Positions 3,352 through 28,017 of a stretch of DNA of 31,562 nt are shown one piece after another. The translations under genes and the position numbers were made by a program. The stretch comes from a virus. The DNA lies in IMG/VR virus record IMGVR_UViG_3300043436_002838, positions 1 through 31,562 of that record, one strand, 5' to 3'. Each line of letters begins with the position of its first letter. Positions within the stretch are counted from its first letter, which is position 1. The notes under the pieces were generated by a model, which was not told the origin of the DNA, searched no databases, and saw only the letters and a list, made by a program, of their open reading frames with translations.

Positions 3352-4137
3352 ATGGCAACAAACAAACGTGACTTAAAAGCGTATTCTCGCTTTGATGGAA
3401 CTGGTAGAATCGTACCAGGAAGCACTGTGCTTAGACGTAACAAACCTAAGAATGGTAATTGGAAAGAAGTACAAGCTTATGAATGCTGCTCACCTGATCT
3501 AAACACTTCATATAGATGTTGTATAGCAATACAAGCTATTGCAGATGTTGAAAGTGGACAGTATGGTTTCACATTACAGGTTAGAAATGGAGGACCTAAT
3601 TTAACAGGAAGTATTCAATGGACACCTACAGTGAGTGAGAGTTTTTCTCTTGAAGCTGATGGAAATGATTATGATTTTGAATATGACTTAGAAGGTTTAA
3701 TCCCTCACACTGTTTATTTATGTATAAACAATCCTTCTCAAATTAAAGATTTTGAAATTGGGTTTGGTCCTGGTAATTCTGTAACAATAAGTAATCTTTA
3801 TCAACTAGAAGGTATTGATGAATGGGATGGTGATGATATGGCATTTACATCTTTAGATTTTACAGGTATCACTACAATGACACAGTTATATAATACAAAT
3901 ACAGGATTGCAACATATAAACATTACAGGTTGTGTAAACTTGGATGATGTTGAGCTGGATAATAATGATTTAACAGAAGCTTCTGTAAATCATGTTCTAA
4001 TTACACTTGATGATAATGGATTAACTGGTGGAATTGTTGATCTTACTGGAGGTACTAATTCTGCACCATCTGGTCTAGGTTTAGCAGCTCAAGCTAGTCT
4101 TGTAATAAAAGGATGGGTTGTATTTGTTAACCCTTAA
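3352..4137 (+). CDS. Adhesin with second anchor type (AYECC) and LRR-like C-terminus
   Basis: 261 residues. Residues 1-46 (MATNKRDLKAYSRFDGTGRI to AYECC) form an anchor shared with the gene at 4292 and different from the QIGW anchor. The middle (about 60-160) looks like a beta-sandwich. The C-terminal third has leucine-rich-repeat-like units (LTSLDFTGI, LQHINITGCVNLDDVELDNN) and ends with PSGLGLAAQASLVIKGWVV, a layout common in phage adhesins. There is no catalytic motif. A receptor-binding role is inferred from anchor plus repeat architecture and from its place in the fibre block. Confidence 0.65.
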   Translation: MATNKRDLKAYSRFDGTGRIVPGSTVLRRNKPKNGNWKEVQAYECCSPDLNTSYRCCIAIQAIADVESGQYGFTLQVRNGGPNLTGSIQWTPTVSESFSLEADGNDYDFEYDLEGLIPHTVYLCINNPSQIKDFEIGFGPGNSVTISNLYQLEGIDEWDGDDMAFTSLDFTGITTMTQLYNTNTGLQHINITGCVNLDDVELDNNDLTEASVNHVLITLDDNGLTGGIVDLTGGTNSAPSGLGLAAQASLVIKGWVVFVNP

Positions 4138-4291: not shown

Positions 4292-4528
4292 ATGGCAACA
4301 AATAACAGACCCTTAAAAGCATACGTTAGATTTGATGGTACAGGAAGAATCATTCCAGGAAGCTTAATCCTTAGAAAGAACAAGCCTAAGGTGGGTAAAT
4401 GGCAAGAGATTCCAGCATACGAATGCTGTAATCCTACTACATCAACAACGACAACTGTTGCTCCTACTACTACAACTAGTACTACAGTAGCACCAACAAC
4501 AACTAGTACGACAACACCAGCTCCTTAA
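4292..4528 (+). CDS. Stub adhesin: AYECC anchor plus Thr-rich TTTTVAP repeats
   Basis: 78 residues. Residues 1-46 match the anchor of the gene at 3352 at most positions (MATNxRxLKAYxRFDGTGRI, then AYECC). Residues 49-78 are almost only Thr with Ser, Val, Ala and Pro in TTTTVAP-like units. The protein then stops, so there is no distal domain. It is the second anchor-plus-linker stub in this block (see 2158). Thr/Ser/Pro linkers are flexible and are typical O-glycosylation substrates in other systems. Whether it is functional, a recombination acceptor or a decayed fibre gene cannot be decided here. Confidence 0.7.
   Translation: MATNNRPLKAYVRFDGTGRIIPGSLILRKNKPKVGKWQEIPAYECCNPTTSTTTTVAPTTTTSTTVAPTTTSTTTPAP
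4436..4525 (+). repeat. Thr-codon-rich imperfect repeat
   Basis: About 90 bases made mainly of ACA, ACT and ACG codons with recurring GTTGCTCCT/GTAGCACCA (VAP) units. Low complexity of this kind is prone to slippage and to recombination between paralogues; a shorter version lies at 2269-2295 in the other stub gene. Confidence 0.75.
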
Positions 4529-5237: not shown

Positions 5238-6113
5238 ATGCCTACATTTATAAAACCAGGATTCTGGGAAAAAACAAAAAAAGGATATGACTATTGGTTA
5301 AACCTTGATCTTTTAATAGCAAACACTATTCCTCCATCTAGCATAGCTACATTAGGAAATTCTTTGTATTCAACAAACCCTGCTACTAGTAATTTTAGTA
5401 ATGGTTATGGTGTATTTTTTGGTTTAAATGCTGGTCAAAATGCAACAAATGCTAGTTTTTCAAATTTTATAGGGTATTATGCTGGTCAAGAAGCTACTAA
5501 TGCTAGTTATTCAAACTTTTTAGGGTCTGGTGCTGGTAATGGGGCAAGTGGTGCTAATCACTCAAACTTTTTAGGTAATAATGTAGGAAGTCTTGCAACT
5601 AATGCATTTAGTTCAAACTTTCTAGGTCGAAATGCAGGATTTAATGCTACTAGTGCTAATAGCTCAAACTTTCTAGGTGAATCTGCTGGTAGAAATGCTA
5701 CTAGTGCTAATTCTTCAAATTTCCTTGGTGCTAGTGCTGGATTTAATGCAACTAATGCTTTTCTTTCAAATTTCTTAGGTCAAAATGCTGGTTTTGGTGC
5801 AACTAGTGCTAACAACTCAAACTTTTTTGGTGAATCTGCTGGTAATAATGCAACTACTGCTAATAACTCAAATTTCTTAGGTAGAGAAGCTGGTATGAAT
5901 TCTACTGGTAATAATGTAAACGCATTTGGTGTTCAAGCTCATAAAGGAGGAACATTATCAGGACAAACTGTATTTTCTAATACATCTCTTCCTTCTTATG
6001 CAAATAGGGCAGCAGCTGTAGCAGCTATCACTGTAGCATTAGGAGCTGTAGCAGGAAATACATATTTTTACTACAATCAAACCACCTTTGCTATTGAAGG
6101 TGTAAGACTTTAA
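5238..6113 (+). CDS. Repeat-containing tail fibre protein
   Basis: 291 residues. After a ~55-residue head (MPTFIKPGFWEKTKKGYDYW and on), residues 60-224 hold ten tandem 17-residue repeats with consensus NFLGxxAGxxATxAxxS. The regular Phe-Leu-Gly and Ala-Gly spacing fits a beta-roll or beta-helix fibre, as in trimeric autotransporter heads and some phage fibres. The C-terminal ~60 residues (NAFGVQAHKGGTLSG onward) break the repeat and end in YFYYNQTTFAIEGVRL, perhaps a trimer tip. No enzyme motif is seen. Repeat-number change is an obvious route to length variation. The structural role is likely; oligomeric state and target are unknown. Confidence 0.7.
   Translation: MPTFIKPGFWEKTKKGYDYWLNLDLLIANTIPPSSIATLGNSLYSTNPATSNFSNGYGVFFGLNAGQNATNASFSNFIGYYAGQEATNASYSNFLGSGAGNGASGANHSNFLGNNVGSLATNAFSSNFLGRNAGFNATSANSSNFLGESAGRNATSANSSNFLGASAGFNATNAFLSNFLGQNAGFGATSANNSNFFGESAGNNATTANNSNFLGREAGMNSTGNNVNAFGVQAHKGGTLSGQTVFSNTSLPSYANRAAAVAAITVALGAVAGNTYFYYNQTTFAIEGVRL
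5415..5910 (+). repeat. Ten tandem 51-bp coding repeats
   Basis: Imperfect 51-bp units each encode one 17-residue fibre repeat. The TCAAACTTTCTAGGT-like core (Ser-Asn-Phe-Leu-Gly) is the best conserved part at the DNA level. This is a protein repeat, not a CRISPR: there are no spacers. Confidence 0.8.
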
Positions 6114-6712: not shown

Positions 6713-6919
6713 ATGAGAATATACGAACCAAAAAATAGAATAGATGTTATAACGCCAAAGGGAGATGGCTCAATCATGTTTATTACCGATTATGGTTATG
6801 AAACTGATACCATCTATACAATAATAATTAATCAAACTGGAGAATTATGGCAATATACCCATAAGGATCTTATTGTTAAACCTAATATAACATTTAAACG
6901 CTATGGCAAAAATAATTAA
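6713..6919 (+). CDS. Small protein, probable beta-barrel, unknown function
   Basis: 68 residues. The pattern suggests five or six short beta strands (GSIMFITDYGY, TIYTIIINQTGELWQY), as in an SH3-like or OB-like barrel. The ATG at 6713 lies in the small stem described at 6662-6719. The 3' end overlaps the start of the Lys-rich gene at 6903 by 17 bases. No function is recognised. Confidence 0.55.
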   Translation: MRIYEPKNRIDVITPKGDGSIMFITDYGYETDTIYTIIINQTGELWQYTHKDLIVKPNITFKRYGKNN

Positions 6920-7325
6920 AAAAGCACAAAACGGTGAAGAAGCTGAAAAAAAGAAAGCAAAAATGAAGAACGGTGGTTCTTTATCTGGACTTAATGCTTC
7001 TAATAAAAGAGATAAAGGTACAGATGTTGGTGGTGCTTGGACTAAAGTTCAAAACAAAACATTAGCTGGTGCTAGAGGAAAAGCTAAACTTACCAAAGAC
7101 AAACAACTTGGTGCTACAAAGATGCAAACAGGTGGATCTATTGGTTCTAAAGTGGTTCAAGAAAATCCAAGACAACAAAGAAGACTTTCTAGAATTAGAG
7201 AAACTAATCCAGAGAGAGCTTCAAAAGTTGAGAAAAGAATGGTGAGAAGAGCTGATAGAGCAATGGGTGCTAGAGGTGCTGCTTCTAGAATGAAAGCTGG
7301 TGGAAAAGTGGCTAAAAAGAAATAA
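6903..7325 (+). CDS. Lys-rich virion-type protein 1, shared N-terminal peptide
   Basis: 140 residues, strongly basic, and largely disordered by composition. The start MAKIIKKAQNG matches the N-terminal peptide of the genes at 7329, 7826 and 9068. KMKNGG, KMQTGG and RMKAGG recur at about residues 20, 76 and 130. A helix-like basic segment (PRQQRRLSRIRETNPERASK) lies between. There is no enzyme motif. Such proteins could bind or condense DNA in the head. The shared peptide could be a targeting or processing signal, by analogy with T4 internal head proteins (see findings). Both ideas are inference. Confidence 0.65.
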   Translation: MAKIIKKAQNGEEAEKKKAKMKNGGSLSGLNASNKRDKGTDVGGAWTKVQNKTLAGARGKAKLTKDKQLGATKMQTGGSIGSKVVQENPRQQRRLSRIRETNPERASKVEKRMVRRADRAMGARGAASRMKAGGKVAKKK

Positions 7326-7328
7326 GCT

Positions 7329-7823
7329 ATGAAATCTATTAAGAAAGCACAAGACGGTCTAACTACAAAAGATAGATTAGCCCAAGCAAAAGAAAATAGA
7401 AGAAAACTTGATAGTATTACAGCCATAAAAAGAGCTGAAATAGTTAGAAAAAAAGATTCTATTATACAAAGAAACGCTAACGCAAGAGGTCTTAGTGTGT
7501 CTGATTATAAAAACACAGTTAGAAAAGAATCAAAAAAACCTGATGTAGGTATTGAAACTTGTGGTCCTAACTTCAAATCTACAAAATGTGGTGTAAGTAA
7601 AGCTGCTTCAAAAGAATCAAAATCAGATTGGGGGAAGAAGAAAAATGGTGGTAAAATAACAAAAGCCAAAGATGGTAAGTGGATGCAGAAAGCTGCAGCT
7701 TCTATAAAACGTAGAGGTACTGAAGGTAAATGTACACCTATCACTAAACCTGGTTGTACAGGCAAAGCCAAAGCTCTTGCTAAAACATTCAAAAAAATTG
7801 CTGCTAAGCGTAAAGGTAAATAA
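7329..7823 (+). CDS. Lys-rich virion-type protein 2, shared N-terminal peptide
   Basis: 164 residues, very basic. It starts MKSIKKAQDG, the family peptide. A helical region (about 12-60) is followed by four Cys in two pairs, CGPNFKSTKC (82-91) and CTPITKPGC (136-144), which might bind a metal or form disulfides. KKNGGKITKAKDGKW (about 106-120) carries the internal G-G motif. The C-terminus ALAKTFKKIAAKRKGK is an amphipathic basic helix. The gene is spaced 3 bases from its neighbours, so it is co-expressed with them. DNA binding in the head is a reasonable guess, not shown. Confidence 0.65.
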   Translation: MKSIKKAQDGLTTKDRLAQAKENRRKLDSITAIKRAEIVRKKDSIIQRNANARGLSVSDYKNTVRKESKKPDVGIETCGPNFKSTKCGVSKAASKESKSDWGKKKNGGKITKAKDGKWMQKAAASIKRRGTEGKCTPITKPGCTGKAKALAKTFKKIAAKRKGK

Positions 7824-7825
7824 TC

Positions 7826-8185
7826 ATGAGAAAGATTACTAAAGTTCCAAATGGTCCTCTTATTAAGAAGAAAGGTCCATTTAAAGGAAGCACATTGAAG
7901 AATGGTGGTAAGACACCAGCTTGGCAAAGAGAAGAAGGAAAGAATCCTTCTGGTGGATTAAATGCTAAAGGTGTAGCTTCTTATAGAAGAGCTAACCCAG
8001 GATCTAAACTTAAGACAGCTGTAACCACTAAACCTTCTAAGTTAAAACCTGGAAGTAAAGCTGCTAACAGAAGAAAATCATTTTGTGCCCGAATGTCAGG
8101 GATGAAGAAAAGATTAACATCTGCTAAGACAGCAAATGATCCAAATAGTAGAATTAATAAATCACTCCGTAAATGGAACTGTTAG
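7826..8185 (+). CDS. Lys-rich protein 3 with DUF6321-like C-terminus
   Basis: 119 residues, basic. The N-terminus MRKITKVPNG is a variant of the shared peptide, and LKNGG occurs at about residues 25-29. The last ~40 residues (RRKSFCARMSGMKKRLTSAK ... NDPNSRINKSLRKWNC) match a short Cys-containing module found in many unrelated phages that I associate with DUF6321; the name is from memory. Two Cys bracket the module. The stop at 8183-8185 is followed one base later by the next ATG. Function of the family is unknown; a small virion protein is likely. Confidence 0.65.
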   Translation: MRKITKVPNGPLIKKKGPFKGSTLKNGGKTPAWQREEGKNPSGGLNAKGVASYRRANPGSKLKTAVTTKPSKLKPGSKAANRRKSFCARMSGMKKRLTSAKTANDPNSRINKSLRKWNC

Positions 8186-8186
8186 T

Positions 8187-8354
8187 ATGAAAAAGCAAAT
8201 GCTTAAACGTAAAGATGGAAGTGTTTCTCAAAGAGGACTTTGGGATAACTTGAGAAATAAAGCAGCTTATAATAAGAAAACTGGTGCTAAACCTAAAACT
8301 CCTACAAAAGTAATGTTGTCTCAGGAGAAAAAGATCAAAAATAAAGGAAAATGA
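8187..8354 (+). CDS. Small Lys-rich protein with GLWDN..KPxxPT..ML motif
   Basis: 55 residues, basic. The frame is open further upstream (to 8136), but the ATG at 8187, one base after the previous stop, gives the expected start MKKQMLKRKDGSVSQRGLWD. The C-terminal half (PKTPTKVMLSQEKKIKNKGK) matches the orphan fragment at 8976-9068 in about 11 of 19 positions. The stop overlaps the ATG of the GIY-YIG gene (ATGA). It seems to be the intact member of a pair whose second copy was beheaded by the homing gene, or the recipient of a replacement tail brought by it. Confidence 0.65.
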   Translation: MKKQMLKRKDGSVSQRGLWDNLRNKAAYNKKTGAKPKTPTKVMLSQEKKIKNKGK

Positions 8355-8974
8355 TATTAGCTATTAGTATTGAAAATAAACAAAAATACTTCTCTGAGAA
8401 ACAAAAAGGAGGAGTTATTTACAAAATTACTAATGAGATAGATGGTAAGTTTTATATAGGAAGTACAAACAATCTAATAAAAAGGTATTACACCCATGTA
8501 AATCATATAAGAACTGGTAAGAATAGTTGTGTAAAACTAATCAGAGCAGTTAATAAGCACGGAGAGAAGAACTTTAAGTTTGAGATTGTTTGTGAATGTT
8601 CTACTGAAGAGATTCTTAAAACAGAACAAGAATATATTGACAATTTAAAACCGCACTATAATGTAGCTAAAATTGCTGGTAGTAATCTTGGAATAAAGAG
8701 AACTGAAGAAGTTAAACTCAAAAAGTCAGCTTCTCAGAAGGAAAAGTGGAAAGATGAAACTTATAGAACTAAACACTTAAACAACTTATCAAAGAATTGG
8801 AAATCTGGTTCTAATCATAAAATGGCTAAACTTACAGAAGAACAGGTTATTAAGATTAAGAAACAACTAGCAAATGGTCTTCTTCCTAAACAGGTTGCAG
8901 ACAGTCTAAAAGTAAGTTATCACTCTGTGAAGGATATTCATAGAGGCAAAAGTTGGAAACACATTATAATATAA
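8351..8974 (+). CDS. GIY-YIG homing endonuclease
   Basis: 207 residues. The nuclease domain is at about 20-105: VIY (22-24) and YIG (35-37) form the GIY-YIG motif. R45 in LIKRYYTH, a Glu in TEQEYI and a final PHYNV complete the usual pattern. The middle is a basic linker. Residues 161-205 (LTEEQVIKIKKQLANGLLPK, then VADSLKVSYHSVKDIHRGKSW) form a helix-turn-helix of the NUMOD/IENR type that reads the target site. It starts inside the stop of the upstream gene (ATGA). It sits between two related Lys-rich coding segments, as expected for a mobile gene that entered this locus. No intron boundaries were found around it. Confidence 0.85.
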   Translation: MILAISIENKQKYFSEKQKGGVIYKITNEIDGKFYIGSTNNLIKRYYTHVNHIRTGKNSCVKLIRAVNKHGEKNFKFEIVCECSTEEILKTEQEYIDNLKPHYNVAKIAGSNLGIKRTEEVKLKKSASQKEKWKDETYRTKHLNNLSKNWKSGSNHKMAKLTEEQVIKIKKQLANGLLPKQVADSLKVSYHSVKDIHRGKSWKHIII

Positions 8975-8975
8975 A

Positions 8976-9068
8976 CTTAACATCAGAACTAACAAAGGAT
9001 CTGGTAAGAAACCTACAGCTGCAATGCTGAAACAAGAACGTAAAATTAAATCTAAAACTAAGAAATAA
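8976..9068 (+). pseudogene. Beheaded paralogue of the 8187 gene
   Basis: Immediately after the GIY-YIG stop, the frame beginning CTT AAC ATC at 8976 encodes NIRTNKGSGKKPTAAMLKQE and on to KSKTKK, ending in TAA (9066-9068). It matches the C-terminus of the 8187 gene (PT..ML.QE.KIK.K). There is no start codon upstream: an in-frame stop lies at 8967-8969, inside the nuclease gene. Codons differ between the copies at many third positions, so this is not a recent tandem duplication. It overlaps the next ATG (TAATG). Confidence 0.7.
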
Positions 9069-9634
9069 TGAAAACAATAAAAAAAGCTCAAACTGGAGCT
9101 AAGGTTAAAAAACCTACTACAGAAAAACCTAAAATAGCACCAAAAAAACCTAAGACTGTTTCTCAGAGAATTGGAGACACAACATTAAGAGATATTAAAA
9201 ATGCTAGTGAAGATGGTCTTCAACTTGCTACACTTGGAGTTTATGGTAAAGTGAAAAAAGCTCTTGGAGGTGAATATAAATATAAAAAAATAGGAGAAAA
9301 AAAATATGGTGGTAAAGTTACCAAAGCTAAAAATGGTAAATCATTTCCTGATCTTAACAAAGATGGAAAGATTACAAAAGCAGACATCCTTAAAGGACGT
9401 GGTGTTATAGCTAAGAAAGGTGCTACAGTTAAGAAAGCTCAGATGGGTGGATTTGTTTCAAATGAATTTGCAGCAAAATCTATATCTAAACCTAAAATTA
9501 AAAGTAAACCTAAATTTATAGACAGTCCAATCAAAACTGTTAAATCTAAAAATATAAATGCGTTTCAAGGTAAAAAAGGTATGCTTGCTAAATCAGGAGT
9601 TTCAATGAAAAAATGTAGATATGGCTGCAAGTAA
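9068..9634 (+). CDS. Lys-rich virion-type protein 4 with EF-hand-like loop
   Basis: 188 residues, very basic. It starts MKTIKKAQTG, the family peptide. KYGGKVTKAKNGK (79-91) and VKKAQMGG (121-128) repeat the G-G motif and the N-terminal peptide internally. D95-L-N97-K-D99-G-K-I-T-K-A-D106 is a full DxNxDGxxxxxD calcium-loop pattern, as in dockerins and single EF-hands. The C-terminus has two Cys (KKCRYGCK). The start shares TAATG with the orphan fragment upstream. It is probably a virion protein, with Ca2+ binding predicted from the loop only. Confidence 0.65.
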   Translation: MKTIKKAQTGAKVKKPTTEKPKIAPKKPKTVSQRIGDTTLRDIKNASEDGLQLATLGVYGKVKKALGGEYKYKKIGEKKYGGKVTKAKNGKSFPDLNKDGKITKADILKGRGVIAKKGATVKKAQMGGFVSNEFAAKSISKPKIKSKPKFIDSPIKTVKSKNINAFQGKKGMLAKSGVSMKKCRYGCK

Positions 9635-9788
9635 ATCAATGACTTCTGGCAAAGCTAAGAAATCTGGTAAGCCTAGAATGGCTCCAAAGGTAGCTCCTCC
9701 TAACCCTATCAACGGTAATTATATGAAGGAAGCTGGTGATCGAGGTACTAAAAGACCTTTGTTCAAAAGAAAACGTATATCAAAATAA
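9621..9788 (+). CDS. Small Lys/Pro-rich protein ending the late block
   Basis: 55 residues, starting MAASKSMTSGKAKKSGKPRM and ending in TKRPLFKRKRISK. It overlaps the previous gene by 14 bases in another frame. Its composition matches the Lys-rich block, but it lacks the N-terminal peptide. PPNPINGNYMKEAG is probably a small folded piece. The TAA at 9786-9788 comes just before the terminator. No function is recognised. Confidence 0.6.
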   Translation: MAASKSMTSGKAKKSGKPRMAPKVAPPNPINGNYMKEAGDRGTKRPLFKRKRISK

Positions 9789-9790
9789 TA

Positions 9791-9811
9791 AAGCCCTCAC
9801 TTAGAGGGCTT
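9791..9811. terminator. Bidirectional terminator between convergent blocks
   Basis: AAGCCCTC (9791-9798) and GAGGGCTT (9804-9811) form a perfect 8-bp stem with a 5-base loop. On the plus strand it runs into TTTTTT; on the minus strand the stem is followed by TTATTATTTT. It separates the plus-strand late genes from the minus-strand block. The stop codon of the minus-strand gene (9797-9799) lies inside the stem. Confidence 0.85.
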
Positions 9812-10441
9812 TTTTAATTTACTTCCCCATGTAGAAACATGAGAACAATGATCTAAATAATATATCCATTCTTCAGAAAGGGTTTCACTAGTCAGATACC
9901 AAGGAACATGTTTAATACAATATGGTTTGTCTAGTCTTACAGCATCATAAGAAAAGGGAGAATTAGGTCTGTATAGTGCAAACGTTGTGTCTATATGAGC
10001 ATCCCATCCATGAACTGTTCTCTTTGTCCAATACTTAGATTCATGTTGGTAAACATCTCTTCCTATTTCTGTATCAGGAAGATCGTCTATCTCTAAAGAG
10101 AATCCCACTTTAAAAGCATCTGTATTATTCAATACATCAAACATTTTATCTAACCAATCATTAGGTACTCCTTCATAAGAACAATCAGGATCAGCTAATA
10201 TGAAATACTGCTTTCTTACGTCAGAGTATTTATGATTCCAAGCGTTCTGAGCACTACCATTAGATTTTACATAGTCTACCTCTTCATCAGTGGTCTTATA
10301 CCATTCCAATAGTTTTGGATAAGTTGAATCGTGATCCACTATTAATATTCTATTTATCCTAGGTTCTTTTCTTAAAAACTCCACTGTATCCTTCAAAGAA
10401 GATAGTAGGTTTCTATTAACTATTATTGCGTTTACTAACAT
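9797..10441 (-). CDS. Glycosyltransferase family 2-like protein
   Basis: 214 residues. The N-terminus has the GT2 nucleotide-binding layout: IIVNRN (6-11), RILIVDHDST (31-40) and ILADPDC (81-87), with the D84-P-D86 metal site. The rest has HGWDAHIDTTFALYRPNS and ends basic. No transmembrane segment is seen. It overlaps the gene at 10416-11186 by 26 bases, and its stop is within the terminator. It may modify phage DNA, virion proteins or host surface sugars; nothing in the sequence decides this. Confidence 0.65.
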   Translation of the reverse strand: MLVNAIIVNRNLLSSLKDTVEFLRKEPRINRILIVDHDSTYPKLLEWYKTTDEEVDYVKSNGSAQNAWNHKYSDVRKQYFILADPDCSYEGVPNDWLDKMFDVLNNTDAFKVGFSLEIDDLPDTEIGRDVYQHESKYWTKRTVHGWDAHIDTTFALYRPNSPFSYDAVRLDKPYCIKHVPWYLTSETLSEEWIYYLDHCSHVSTWGSKLKKPSK

Positions 10442-24694: not shown

Positions 24695-26659
24695 TTAGTC
24701 TATTAATTGTTCAACAGTTTCTTCTGTCAACACCTCATCATTGATTCTGATGTTGTAATGTTTTAAGTCCACTCTATGTTTGTAATATTTGAAAAGATCA
24801 ATCATTACATTAACTATAGGATTATCATCTCTATAATGTCCCACTTCTTTACATAAAGGGTTTAGAAATGCTAATTTAGTTAATAATTCTCTCATTTCCA
24901 AGGCTTCAGGATACATATTCATATCAAATAAGTTATTTTCTTCAGCTACGGATAACATAGATTCTAAGAATTCTTTTGCTTGACTACTTCCTCCAGAATA
25001 ATTAGGGATAATATAATTATCACCAACATACTTAGATAGAGCGTTTAACTTATTACAAAGTTCTGTAGACACATACCCCACTTGACTACTTCTTTCAAAT
25101 ACATATCTATACTCTTCCATTAATTTCTTAATGTAATAAGCTGTGGCCATTCTTTTGAATGGTGCTGTTTTTCCTTCCATAAATGTTTCTAATGATATTA
25201 AATTGTGAATCTCTGCATCTTTCAATATAGTTAATTCTCTTTGAGAGAATGTAACCACTTCCATTTTCTGTTTGCTTATAAGACCATATAATGCATCTAT
25301 TTTTAGATAATCGTCATGGTGAGCATAAACTCTTAACTTTTTATCTTTATGCATATCTTCTAACTTATATGTAATAGGAACAAATTTACAGTTTCTACCA
25401 TCACTCCATTTCATAAGTTCTTCAGCACGTTTACCAATAACCTCTCCTTTAAGTTTAGGTTTTCTTGCTGATGATTGACCAGTGCTAGTTACAAAAGCTT
25501 TCACCTTCTTTCTAGAATCAATGAATGCTTGTGGTACTTGTAGTTCATCTAGATTTATAAAAGATGCAGACAACATATTTATAATAGATTGATATTCTTT
25601 AATAACATCTCTCCATTGATTTTTAGGATAGTTCTTCAAGTCTAATAGGTGATAATATGTTCTGATGTCAAACTTAGCAGGATTTCCTAATTTCATAGGC
25701 TTGCTTGGTTTTACAATAAACACTTTATCACTAACACCATAAATGCTTCTCAAATAATCTTTCTTGATTCCTGGCACCTTGTCTTCATAGATATACACCT
25801 TTACATCATTAGAAGCTAAAGCTTGAGGTTTCCAATACCAGTTATATCCTTTTGTAGCATCCATCATTCTCTTGTTGTTCAAATAGAACTTAGGAGAGAA
25901 GTCTTCTAATAAATAATTTTTCTTAGTAGATGTATATAATGCTGCAAAGTCAATAAGAGAAAGTCCTTCCAATTGTGGAGTTTTAATTTGAACAGTTGCA
26001 TATTCAGAAAGATCATCAATTCTAATAGACGAACCATTGAAATCAATATATTTTCCTGATTTCTCTAAGTGATTAATCATAGACTTAATATCACATCCAC
26101 TTTCAATTCCTTCGTTGTATTTATTTATAAAATAATCAGCAACATCAGATAATTTAGCTTTAATGATTTCTTTTGCCTCTTGAGTATATCTAATAGATTC
26201 TCTATTAGGAGTTGGATAGATTCCATCTGTTAGAGAAAATCTAAGAGCTATAGGAAAATCTATTCTTTTTATGCCTATTTTATCAAAATCCAATGGATAA
26301 TAAACATTATCTAAACATATGTGTAAATAGTTTACTTCAGACAATTCAGAGAATTGAAAATCAGGATGTCTAGAGATGATGAATTCATTATGAATACTGC
26401 TGTCAGATGGAACATCAAAATACACATCTTCGAAATAACAAAGTTGTTCTTTGATTTTTCTTTTAAATTGATACTGATCTTGATATTTCACTGGTACAAT
26501 CACTTTCACACCATTTCTTTCTGTTGTTGGTGTTTCATATAAAAGATCGATAGTGTTCACATCTTCTCCTTCATACATCATGTACTTACGCTCTATTCCA
26601 TCTTTTCTACATACAAAATAGAAACTAGATGAATAAGCAAGAGGTGCTTTGAAACCTAG
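24695..26659 (-). CDS. rIIA: rIIA-like protein, exon 2
   Basis: 654 residues follow the intron, giving 775 in all with exon 1 (T4 rIIA is 725). The exon starts CTA GGT TTC AAA at 26659, so LGFKAPLAYSSS joins GMMG of exon 1 to make the G2 box GMMGLGFKAPLAY of a GHKL ATPase. The open frame also has an internal ATG at 26581, but residues 122-147 upstream of it are coding and in frame. The long C-terminal part (for example IDFPIALRFSLTDGIYPTPN, RESIRYT) fits the second and later domains of rIIA. The known T4 role is membrane-associated and opposes lambda Rex exclusion; the function here is inferred. Confidence 0.85.
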   Translation of the reverse strand, partial: LGFKAPLAYSSSFYFVCRKDGIERKYMMYEGEDVNTIDLLYETPTTERNGVKVIVPVKYQDQYQFKRKIKEQLCYFEDVYFDVPSDSSIHNEFIISRHPDFQFSELSEVNYLHICLDNVYYPLDFDKIGIKRIDFPIALRFSLTDGIYPTPNRESIRYTQEAKEIIKAKLSDVADYFINKYNEGIESGCDIKSMINHLEKSGKYIDFNGSSIRIDDLSEYATVQIKTPQLEGLSLIDFAALYTSTKKNYLLEDFSPKFYLNNKRMMDATKGYNWYWKPQALASNDVKVYIYEDKVPGIKKDYLRSIYGVSDKVFIVKPSKPMKLGNPAKFDIRTYYHLLDLKNYPKNQWRDVIKEYQSIINMLSASFINLDELQVPQAFIDSRKKVKAFVTSTGQSSARKPKLKGEVIGKRAEELMKWSDGRNCKFVPITYKLEDMHKDKKLRVYAHHDDYLKIDALYGLISKQKMEVVTFSQRELTILKDAEIHNLISLETFMEGKTAPFKRMATAYYIKKLMEEYRYVFERSSQVGYVSTELCNKLNALSKYVGDNYIIPNYSGGSSQAKEFLESMLSVAEENNLFDMNMYPEALEMRELLTKLAFLNPLCKEVGHYRDDNPIVNVMIDLFKYYKHRVDLKHYNIRINDEVLTEETVEQLID

Positions 26660-26785
26660 CGGTTCTGTTAATCTCTAGTTTCCCAGAGTGTCGGACTATA
26701 TCATCACCCTATAAATAGGGGTTGGACGCTTTTTCATATGGTTACTAACCCATACTACTTCCTGTTATTAAGCAGACTTTACTGC

Positions 26786-27547
26786 TCAGGTAGTCTCTAA
26801 ACGTTCTGAAGATGTATCTTCAGCTTCGCTTTTGATTGTCATGTTAAATTCTACTACTTTATCATATTTTCTTTTAAGAAAATAAGTAGCATCACTATAC
26901 AAATAATTTACACTATCTAAAACTTCTTGTTTGTTTTCTATCCACAAAATATAATTAACCTGTGTTCTAACTTTTTCAGTTATATAAGGTTTACTTATAT
27001 TTAGACATTTTGCTATTTCTAATAAAAATTCTTTATCAGTTGAGCAAAAAGCTAATTTAAGTTTATATTGTTGTTTATGTGGTTTAAAAATACTATGATT
27101 AGTTTTTCTAATGTATTTATATTGTAACTTTTTCAATATTACACTTCCATCACCATCTAAAAACCCTCTAATAAAATGAGGTATTAAATGTTTTTCTAGT
27201 TTAGGAAAAGTCATTCCTAATTTACTTTTATTGATGTTGCATCCTAGATCAATTAGATTATTACCTATTTGATTTGATACTATATTGACACAGTGTTGAG
27301 GTTTATAACCTTTTTTAATACTTGAAGGAGTGTTGACAATATTTTTTTGTCCTCCTGCAGCTTCTCTAGATAATTCATCAAGAATGTAACCATCCTCTTC
27401 TTGAACTCCTATTCTAAAGTTAAGTTTTCTATTACCTGAAGGTTGTGATATACATCCATCAGCATATATAAAACCTAAAATATAAGCTTTGTATTCTGTG
27501 TCAATTAAATTGAAATAATTGTGATTAACTTTGTACTTGTATCCCAT
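26786..27547 (-). CDS. LAGLIDADG homing endonuclease in the intron
   Basis: 253 residues. Two LAGLIDADG helices are clear: AYILGFIYADG (21-31) and HFIRGFLDGDG (124-134), with the catalytic Asp at the end of each. One chain with two motifs folds as a pseudo-dimer and cuts a long target site. The stop codon lies in the P7 region of the intron, so the gene ends in ribozyme core sequence. It has its own candidate promoter (27568-27575). It should spread the intron into intronless rIIA genes. Confidence 0.9.
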   Translation of the reverse strand: MGYKYKVNHNYFNLIDTEYKAYILGFIYADGCISQPSGNRKLNFRIGVQEEDGYILDELSREAAGGQKNIVNTPSSIKKGYKPQHCVNIVSNQIGNNLIDLGCNINKSKLGMTFPKLEKHLIPHFIRGFLDGDGSVILKKLQYKYIRKTNHSIFKPHKQQYKLKLAFCSTDKEFLLEIAKCLNISKPYITEKVRTQVNYILWIENKQEVLDSVNYLYSDATYFLKRKYDKVVEFNMTIKSEAEDTSSERLETT

Positions 27548-27567
27548 GGTGTGTTATGTTTAGGGTA

Positions 27568-27575
27568 CAAAGATA
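27568..27575 (-). promoter_or_regulatory. Candidate promoter for the intron gene
   Basis: TATCTTTG on the minus strand matches TAnnTTTG, 20 bases before the ATG at 27547, inside the 5' part of the intron. It would let the endonuclease be made apart from rIIA. Confidence 0.4.
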
Positions 27576-27654
27576 ATAATTTAATTTAGATTTCCAAAAA
27601 TTCATCCAATATTTTTAACGTAAAATTACTTTTACGCTGGGCCTAGTTTTGTTG

Positions 27655-28017
27655 ACCCATCATACCTAATTCTGTAGCAGAATTACGTTTAGTAGATTTA
27701 CCATACTTACTAATAATGTTCTTTACATCATCAGCATCTAGACCAATACCAAAATCCTCTACAGAGAATTCATAATTATAGCTAGAATTTTCCTTAAACG
27801 CAACAATAATTGGATCTTTCACTCCAGCTCTTCTATGACTATCTAGAGCATTACTTGCACATTCTCTGATAGTTGAGCCTATATCATCTGAATACAGATT
27901 CTTACTTAACATCTGCATCAATATTTGTGCAGAATCTAAGTCTAGTGACATTCCAATTGATTCTTGTGATTGTCCTTCCACAAGAACGTTTGCTTCTTTC
28001 TGTTTTTCTAAAATCAT
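27655..28017 (-). CDS. rIIA: rIIA-like protein, exon 1 (GHKL ATPase N-terminus)
   Basis: 121 residues up to the 5' splice site; without splicing the frame would add QQN and stop at 27643. IRECASNALDSH (50-61) is the GHKL N box (E52, N56), and VEDFGIGLD (86-94) the G1 box (DxGxG). KYGKSTKRNSATELGMMG leads into the G2 box, which is completed by exon 2. The start is ATG 28017, 11 bases after the gene at 28029 ends. The protein should bind ATP like T4 rIIA and HSP90-type proteins. Confidence 0.85.

Follow-up and report, generated by a model that had tools for sequence, protein, structure and literature searches.

A KKAQxG peptide recurs on Lys-rich cassette proteins and a predicted cargo protein 1 counterpart of aquatic crAss-like viruses

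Adenovirus and asfarvirus proteases cut basic core proteins at GG, and these core proteins are DNA-associated. In phage T4, the small head proteins IPI-IPIII have divergent mature parts and share an N-terminal peptide of ~10 residues, the capsid targeting sequence (CTS); the first 10 residues of IPIII suffice for incorporation, gp21 cuts after L/I-x-E, and the CTS is thought to allow phages to package varied proteins (PMC9026906). In the crassvirus phiCrAss001, gp45 (cargo protein 1) is located in the capsid and tail, with residues 425-552 bound to the portal inside the capsid and residues 214-245 lining the tail barrel, and most of the cargo is unresolved in its structure (PMC10172136). The passages of that paper covered here mention neither a KKAQxG element nor a linked cassette of basic proteins. 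The element described here bears on the question of how crassviruses select megadaltons of protein cargo and bring it into head and tail.

The window, a virus record of 31,562 bases (31.6 kb), covers part of a genome from an uncultured group of crassviruses with genomes of ~104-119 kb. Most of its open reading frames have homologues, often ~80% identical, in nine fully read IMG/VR relatives (104-119 kb), which places the window in the same genome group. No capsid gene was seen in the 31.6 kb of the window; all nine relatives carry the crass capsid family PF23898 (E 1e-25 to 1e-30), and the one relative scanned in detail also encodes crAss_MUZ (muzzle, E 5e-31), CrAss_Ring_1, CrAss_Ring_2 and P22_portal. 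The relatives are assigned to Crassvirales by the capsid family and by these muzzle, ring and portal proteins together with the gene order muzzle-C1-C2-RNAP, and their order muzzle-C1-C2-giant is that of other crassviruses. TerL and portal have matches in phiCrAss001 and in Cellulophaga phage phi14:2, and stronger ones in Leptolyngbya phage Lbo-JY46. The element is carried by a group of aquatic crAss-like viruses of bacteria. A host search of bacterial genome contigs returned one capsid gene with 87% identity; its contig (13.4 kb) comes from a Tissierellales MAG and may be mis-binned.

The cassette comes last among the late-strand genes and faces the early genes; where late (+) and early (-) genes converge lies a hairpin (9790..9812) that has runs of T on each strand. 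The cassette strand was the late strand in all eight relatives in which a cassette was recognized. Its proteins consist of recurring modules that are found fused or as separate genes. The first gene (6903..7325, +) encodes a Lys-rich protein of 140 aa (K+R 28%) with a leader, a GAWTKVQ module and an NPERA module; KMKNGG and KMQTGG separate modules, and the C-terminal end is RMKAGGKVAKKK. The second (7329..7823, +) encodes a Lys-rich protein of 164 aa in which a leader and a KLDSI module are followed by a KKKNGGKITKAKDGK junction and a WMQK module, the latter being a gene of its own in two relatives (G001 and G008). The DUF6321 gene (7826..8185, +) combines a VPNGPLIKK module, an LKNGG junction and DUF6321 itself (PF19846, residues 38-117, E 8e-21). 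A small basic protein of the GLW type (KRKDGSVSQRGLWDN; 8187..8354, +) has no leader, and a GIY-YIG homing endonuclease (8351..8974, +) is inserted inside the cassette. The Lys-rich protein of 188 aa at 9068..9634 (+) has a leader, an EF-hand-like FPDLNKDGKITKADILKGRGVI module, a second KKAQMGG and a conserved C-terminal MKKCRYGCK. The last gene (9621..9788, +), again without leader, encodes a small basic protein (MTxGKAKKSGKPRxAPKVAPPxPINGNYMKEA) with homologues in all nine relatives. The 6903, 7329 and 9068 proteins had no match in PHROGs, and the AlphaFold model of the 9068 family (pLDDT 49.5) suggests that this family is probably disordered.

A sequence-only reading of the window had proposed that four basic proteins, at 6903, 7329, 7826 and 9068, share one N-terminal peptide. 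All four reading frames start with ATG at these positions and begin MAKIIKKAQNG, MKSIKKAQDG, MRKITKVPNG and MKTIKKAQTG, respectively. The proposal stands for 6903, 7329 and 9068, which fit M-x-x-(x)-I-K-K-A-Q-x-G and carry the leader elements KKAQNG (residues 6-11; 6918..6935, +), KKAQDG (residues 5-10; 7341..7358, +) and KKAQTG (residues 5-10; 9080..9097, +). The 7826 N terminus is divergent: its ITKVPNG is part of the VPNGPLIKK module and resembles the leader, but whether it belongs with the others is uncertain, and it is not counted as a clear case. N-terminal copies of this module read ITKVP[ND]G or MTKVPDG in 15 of 18 instances; internal copies are mostly ITPVPNG, with the P in 27/32. When the cassette was shuffled with its composition preserved, the pattern as originally proposed (2-3 residues before I) was expected 0.00005 times per window and seen four times, and KKAQxG within the first 15 residues of the tested window open reading frames was expected 0.0015 times and seen three times. 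Beyond the leader the proteins differ, as had been claimed: BLASTP found the bodies unrelated, except for a short stretch shared by 7329 and 9068 (E 0.001). The repeat of KKAQMGG inside the 9068 protein (9431..9451, +), located after the EF-hand-like module, is conserved, with K122, K123, A124, Q125 and G127 invariant across six homologues.

The peptide is not confined to this window. A loose N-terminal regular expression applied to a first set of 86 sequences (85 loci and the window) picked out 128 distinct proteins, whose genes in many cases lie in tandem, and the wider set contains 173 distinct proteins with KKAQxG near the N terminus. Across the 173 proteins, KKAQ is encoded by 21 of the 32 possible synonymous 12-mers; it is therefore conserved at the protein level. 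Because shared modules drew almost every protein together under single-linkage clustering of the bodies, the 55 residues after the element were clustered greedily instead, giving ~79 body clusters. Among 2.9 million viral contigs, the N-terminal pattern was found in at least 119 stretches and the A/Q-swapped control KKQAxG in 17. The leader is present on 26 of 50 cassette genes; since about half of the genes lack it, it is unnecessary for cassette membership.

We compared observed AQxG counts with shuffled expectations for each compartment of the nine full relatives. AQxG was enriched in three places only: the cassette (36 observed versus 1.8 expected), a large late protein (33 versus 7.7) and the gene that directly precedes it (15 versus 1.7). 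It was not enriched in the other late genes (14/25.9), early genes (5/8.5), C2 (0/2.9) or the giant proteins (13/9.7), and the QAxG control was enriched in no compartment. Sequence comparison identifies the large AQxG-rich protein as a counterpart of crassvirus cargo protein 1. Its gene lies between the muzzle and the C2/giant genes, the position of gp45 in phiCrAss001 and other crassviruses, and a profile of 17 sequences matched the gp45 family in hhalign (E 6e-11, probability 97%) at gp45 residues 424-509, inside the portal-bound domain (425-552). A second, weaker match on the C-terminal side was collinear (E 0.0026). The profile had no match to the gp46 family, a HMMER sequence-profile search of PDB chains with the protein did not return gp45, no PHROG matched, and tblastn with the copy from G001 found no phage record. 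A conserved N-terminal region of the large protein is present in 16 of 17 relatives. The presence of the element in this protein therefore ties it to a family with a member shown inside the virion.

Two residues ahead of the Lys of KAQ, a hydrophobic amino acid is found at 161/167 of the N-terminal sites, 95/111 of the internal cassette sites and 38/61 of the gp45-like sites, against a background of 0.18-0.22. Internal cassette sites and gp45-like sites also have an extended form in common, approximately A-K-[KY]-G-[GAK]-x-[ILVF]-[KP]-K-A-Q-x-G; because the upstream A-K-K-G of cassette sites is in part the tail of the EF-hand-like module, we rely only on the hydrophobic-K-K-A-Q-x-G core. Because the same peptide is found on many different Lys-rich proteins and on the gp45-like counterpart, hydrophobic-Lys-Lys-Ala-Gln-x-Gly probably serves as a tag, for addressing or for processing, in the loading of proteins into virus particles.

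The earlier reading had drawn an analogy to T4: a signal for routing into the head, with internal G-G motifs as possible cleavage sites. The routing part has strong indirect support from the element in the gp45-like protein and from the late strand; the cleavage part was not borne out. The G-G motifs themselves exist and have a direction, with [KR]-x-G-G found 51 times and the reverse order seven times in the cassettes of the nine relatives (16-17 expected for each). A [KR]xxxGG-like element precedes internal GAWTKVQ (27/27), EF-hand (54/58), DUF6321 (37/39) and GLW (41/45) modules, compared with 0.34-0.51 of random positions in the same proteins; NPERA (5/8) and internal VPNGPL copies (0/8) fit less well. 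Fused copies keep the register of gene starts (G-G-K-I-K-K-A-Q versus standalone M-A-K-I-K-K-A-Q; fused GGKQMLKRADGS versus standalone MAKQMIKRADGS), and separate DUF6321 and GLW genes have such an element at their own N terminus in only 4/34 and 6/29 cases, respectively. From the junction counts, the register and these N termini, we conclude that G-G marks junctions and that KKAQxG marks the starts of certain modules; internal copies of the element, usually after a K-x-G-G-like stretch, likewise sit at module junctions. These features would suit a processing signal: some unrecognized protease, from phage or host, would cut at the junctions (such as behind G-[GAK], inside the element or beyond it), divide both the fused proteins and the gp45-like protein into their modules and trim N termini in the head. 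G-G at junctions is, however, expected equally of a cleavage site and of a plain linker, and no fixed residue follows the leader Gly. No peptidase was recognized among 64 Pfam-scanned proteins of G001, a set that left out fibres, one giant protein and unrecognized folds. Peptidase_S78 was found in none of the nine relatives, with control genomes giving a signal; S77 (gp21-type prohead protease) was also found in none, with no signal in the controls of the S77 or C48 searches. Avoidance of AQxG as a cleavage site in other late proteins looked strong in three genomes (0 versus 8.8 expected) and was dropped because the nine-genome count of 14 (25.9 expected) falls within the shuffle range of 11-41. 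Cleavage is possible but unsupported, and we regard processing as unlikely to be the function of the element.

Alternatively, the element could be a flexible, basic, nucleic-acid-binding spacer kept by module shuffling, with no part in routing or cleavage. Shuffling and fusion are evident, and the proteins are basic and predicted to be disordered, but nothing in a spacer calls for an invariant A-Q, the hydrophobic position, conservation despite varied codons or confinement to the cassette and the gp45 region, and we consider this explanation somewhat unlikely. AAA-rich starts are common in AT-rich genes, so a run of AAA codons after ATG might give Lys-rich proteins a chance likeness; the shuffled expectation, the swapped control and the internal copies, which are identical in sequence, already refute this as a full explanation, and it is exceedingly improbable. 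The best single reading, in which we place about half of our confidence, is that the element would be a portable cargo address acting like the T4 CTS and unrelated to it in sequence; in its favour are the link with cargo protein 1, the late-strand location and the use of one leader on many bodies, as with the CTS. Against it, multiple internal copies exceed the needs of one address, KKAAMG replaces KKAQxG at residue 37 of the gp45-like protein in about half of the relatives, and known gut gp45 proteins have K/R-rich and AFGG/AYGG motifs, not KKAQxG.

As a cargo address, the element would work as follows. The cassette would produce small, mostly disordered, basic proteins late in crassvirus infection. 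A portable hydrophobic-[K/P]-[K/R]-A-Q-x-G, also present on the gp45-like cargo protein 1, would serve as their docking signal, placed at the N terminus of single-module proteins and repeated before later modules of fused ones. It may bind a common partner in the assembling head, with scaffold, portal, major capsid protein and cargo protein 1 as candidates. The basic proteins would in this way be enclosed with the DNA, might help to condense it and may be ejected alongside it. A distinctly unlikely extension is a sorting code in which a cut at G-[GAK] would expose [K/T]-hydrophobic-K-K-A-Q-x-G as the N terminus of every module, and this peptide would load interchangeable basic and enzymatic modules into the head through the partner of cargo protein 1; if true, capsid targeting would have evolved a second time, independently, in a form acting on polyproteins.

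Like the T4 CTS, the leader is a short N-terminal peptide common to unrelated small proteins. Unlike the CTS, it is basic, recurs inside proteins and in the gp45-like protein, and contains no L/I-x-E site in the leaders examined; because that motif is absent and no relative of gp21 was recognized in the nine crassvirus relatives, by an S77 search whose controls gave no signal, the element is not a member of the T4 CTS family. The resemblance to phiCrAss001 cargo proteins gp45/gp46 consists of a gp45-like gene in the same genome position and the match to the portal-bound domain. Basic composition and GG junctions recall the adenovirus and asfarvirus core proteins, but no such protease was found and single-G leaders do not fit the GG consensus. 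An element common to cargo protein 1 and unrelated proteins offers a testable handle on cargo loading and allows the likely cargo of uncultured relatives to be listed from gene sequences; if the address works, it would also provide a ready-made tag with which to bring foreign proteins into the heads of large phages.

The papers searched, which took in only part of the subscription literature, gave no description of the peptide and no mention of DUF6321 or Lbo-JY46. Leptolyngbya phage Lbo-JY46 encodes, at the same locus as the gp45-like gene, a protein starting MKIRIIGLPKAQIG. DUF6321, the domain shared by 7826 with cyanophages and pelagiphages, occurs elsewhere on other architectures, and tblastn found similar sequence in 529 phage records.

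On the + strand at 8351-9067, a GIY-YIG endonuclease gene precedes the 3' portion of a second gene of the GLW type, the small basic module of the Lys-rich cassette. This remnant reads NIRTNKGSGKKPTAAMLKQERKIKSKTKK, and because its 5' part is missing, the arrangement suggests that insertion of the endonuclease broke a cassette gene. Downstream, the C-terminus is conserved across the 9068 family, named for the leader-bearing protein encoded from 9068: it reads K-[ST]-G-x-x-[MIV]-K-K-C-x-x-G-C (9596-9631, + strand) in the window protein and its homologues at loci L003, L008, L016, L029 and L013, and is perhaps a metal or disulfide site.

The rIIA-like gene (24695-28017, - strand) is split by a 253-aa ORF (26786-27547) that is 99% identical to an ORF in the relative G010; the flanking rIIA parts share 57% and 90% identity with that genome. 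No Rfam intron was found, and G010_37803 weakly matches an ORF annotated LAGLIDADG in the Leptolyngbya phage Lbo-JY46. The 253-aa ORF appears to be a homing element that moved recently.

Late genes on the + strand (176-802, 816-2141, 3352-4137, 4292-4528 and 5238-6113) have short N-termini in common, QIGWxxESNLLW, LKAYxRFDGTGRI and MPTFIKPGFW, with differing bodies. The same N-termini occur again in relatives and look like anchors that attach fibres to the virion.

The 13.4 kb contig L326 (JACIXZ010000023.1) is assigned to a Tissierellales MAG, and its capsid gene shares 87% identity with the crassvirus group of the window; the contig is probably mis-binned or a hint at the host.

In cargo-region proteins of three relatives (G013 68666, G011 81259 and G016 92605), variable enzyme-like segments adjoin AQxG sites. 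These segments include HExxH zincin-like motifs and, by eye, an M15-type SRHxxGxAxD...HIHF segment following GANIPKAQRG in the G016 protein.
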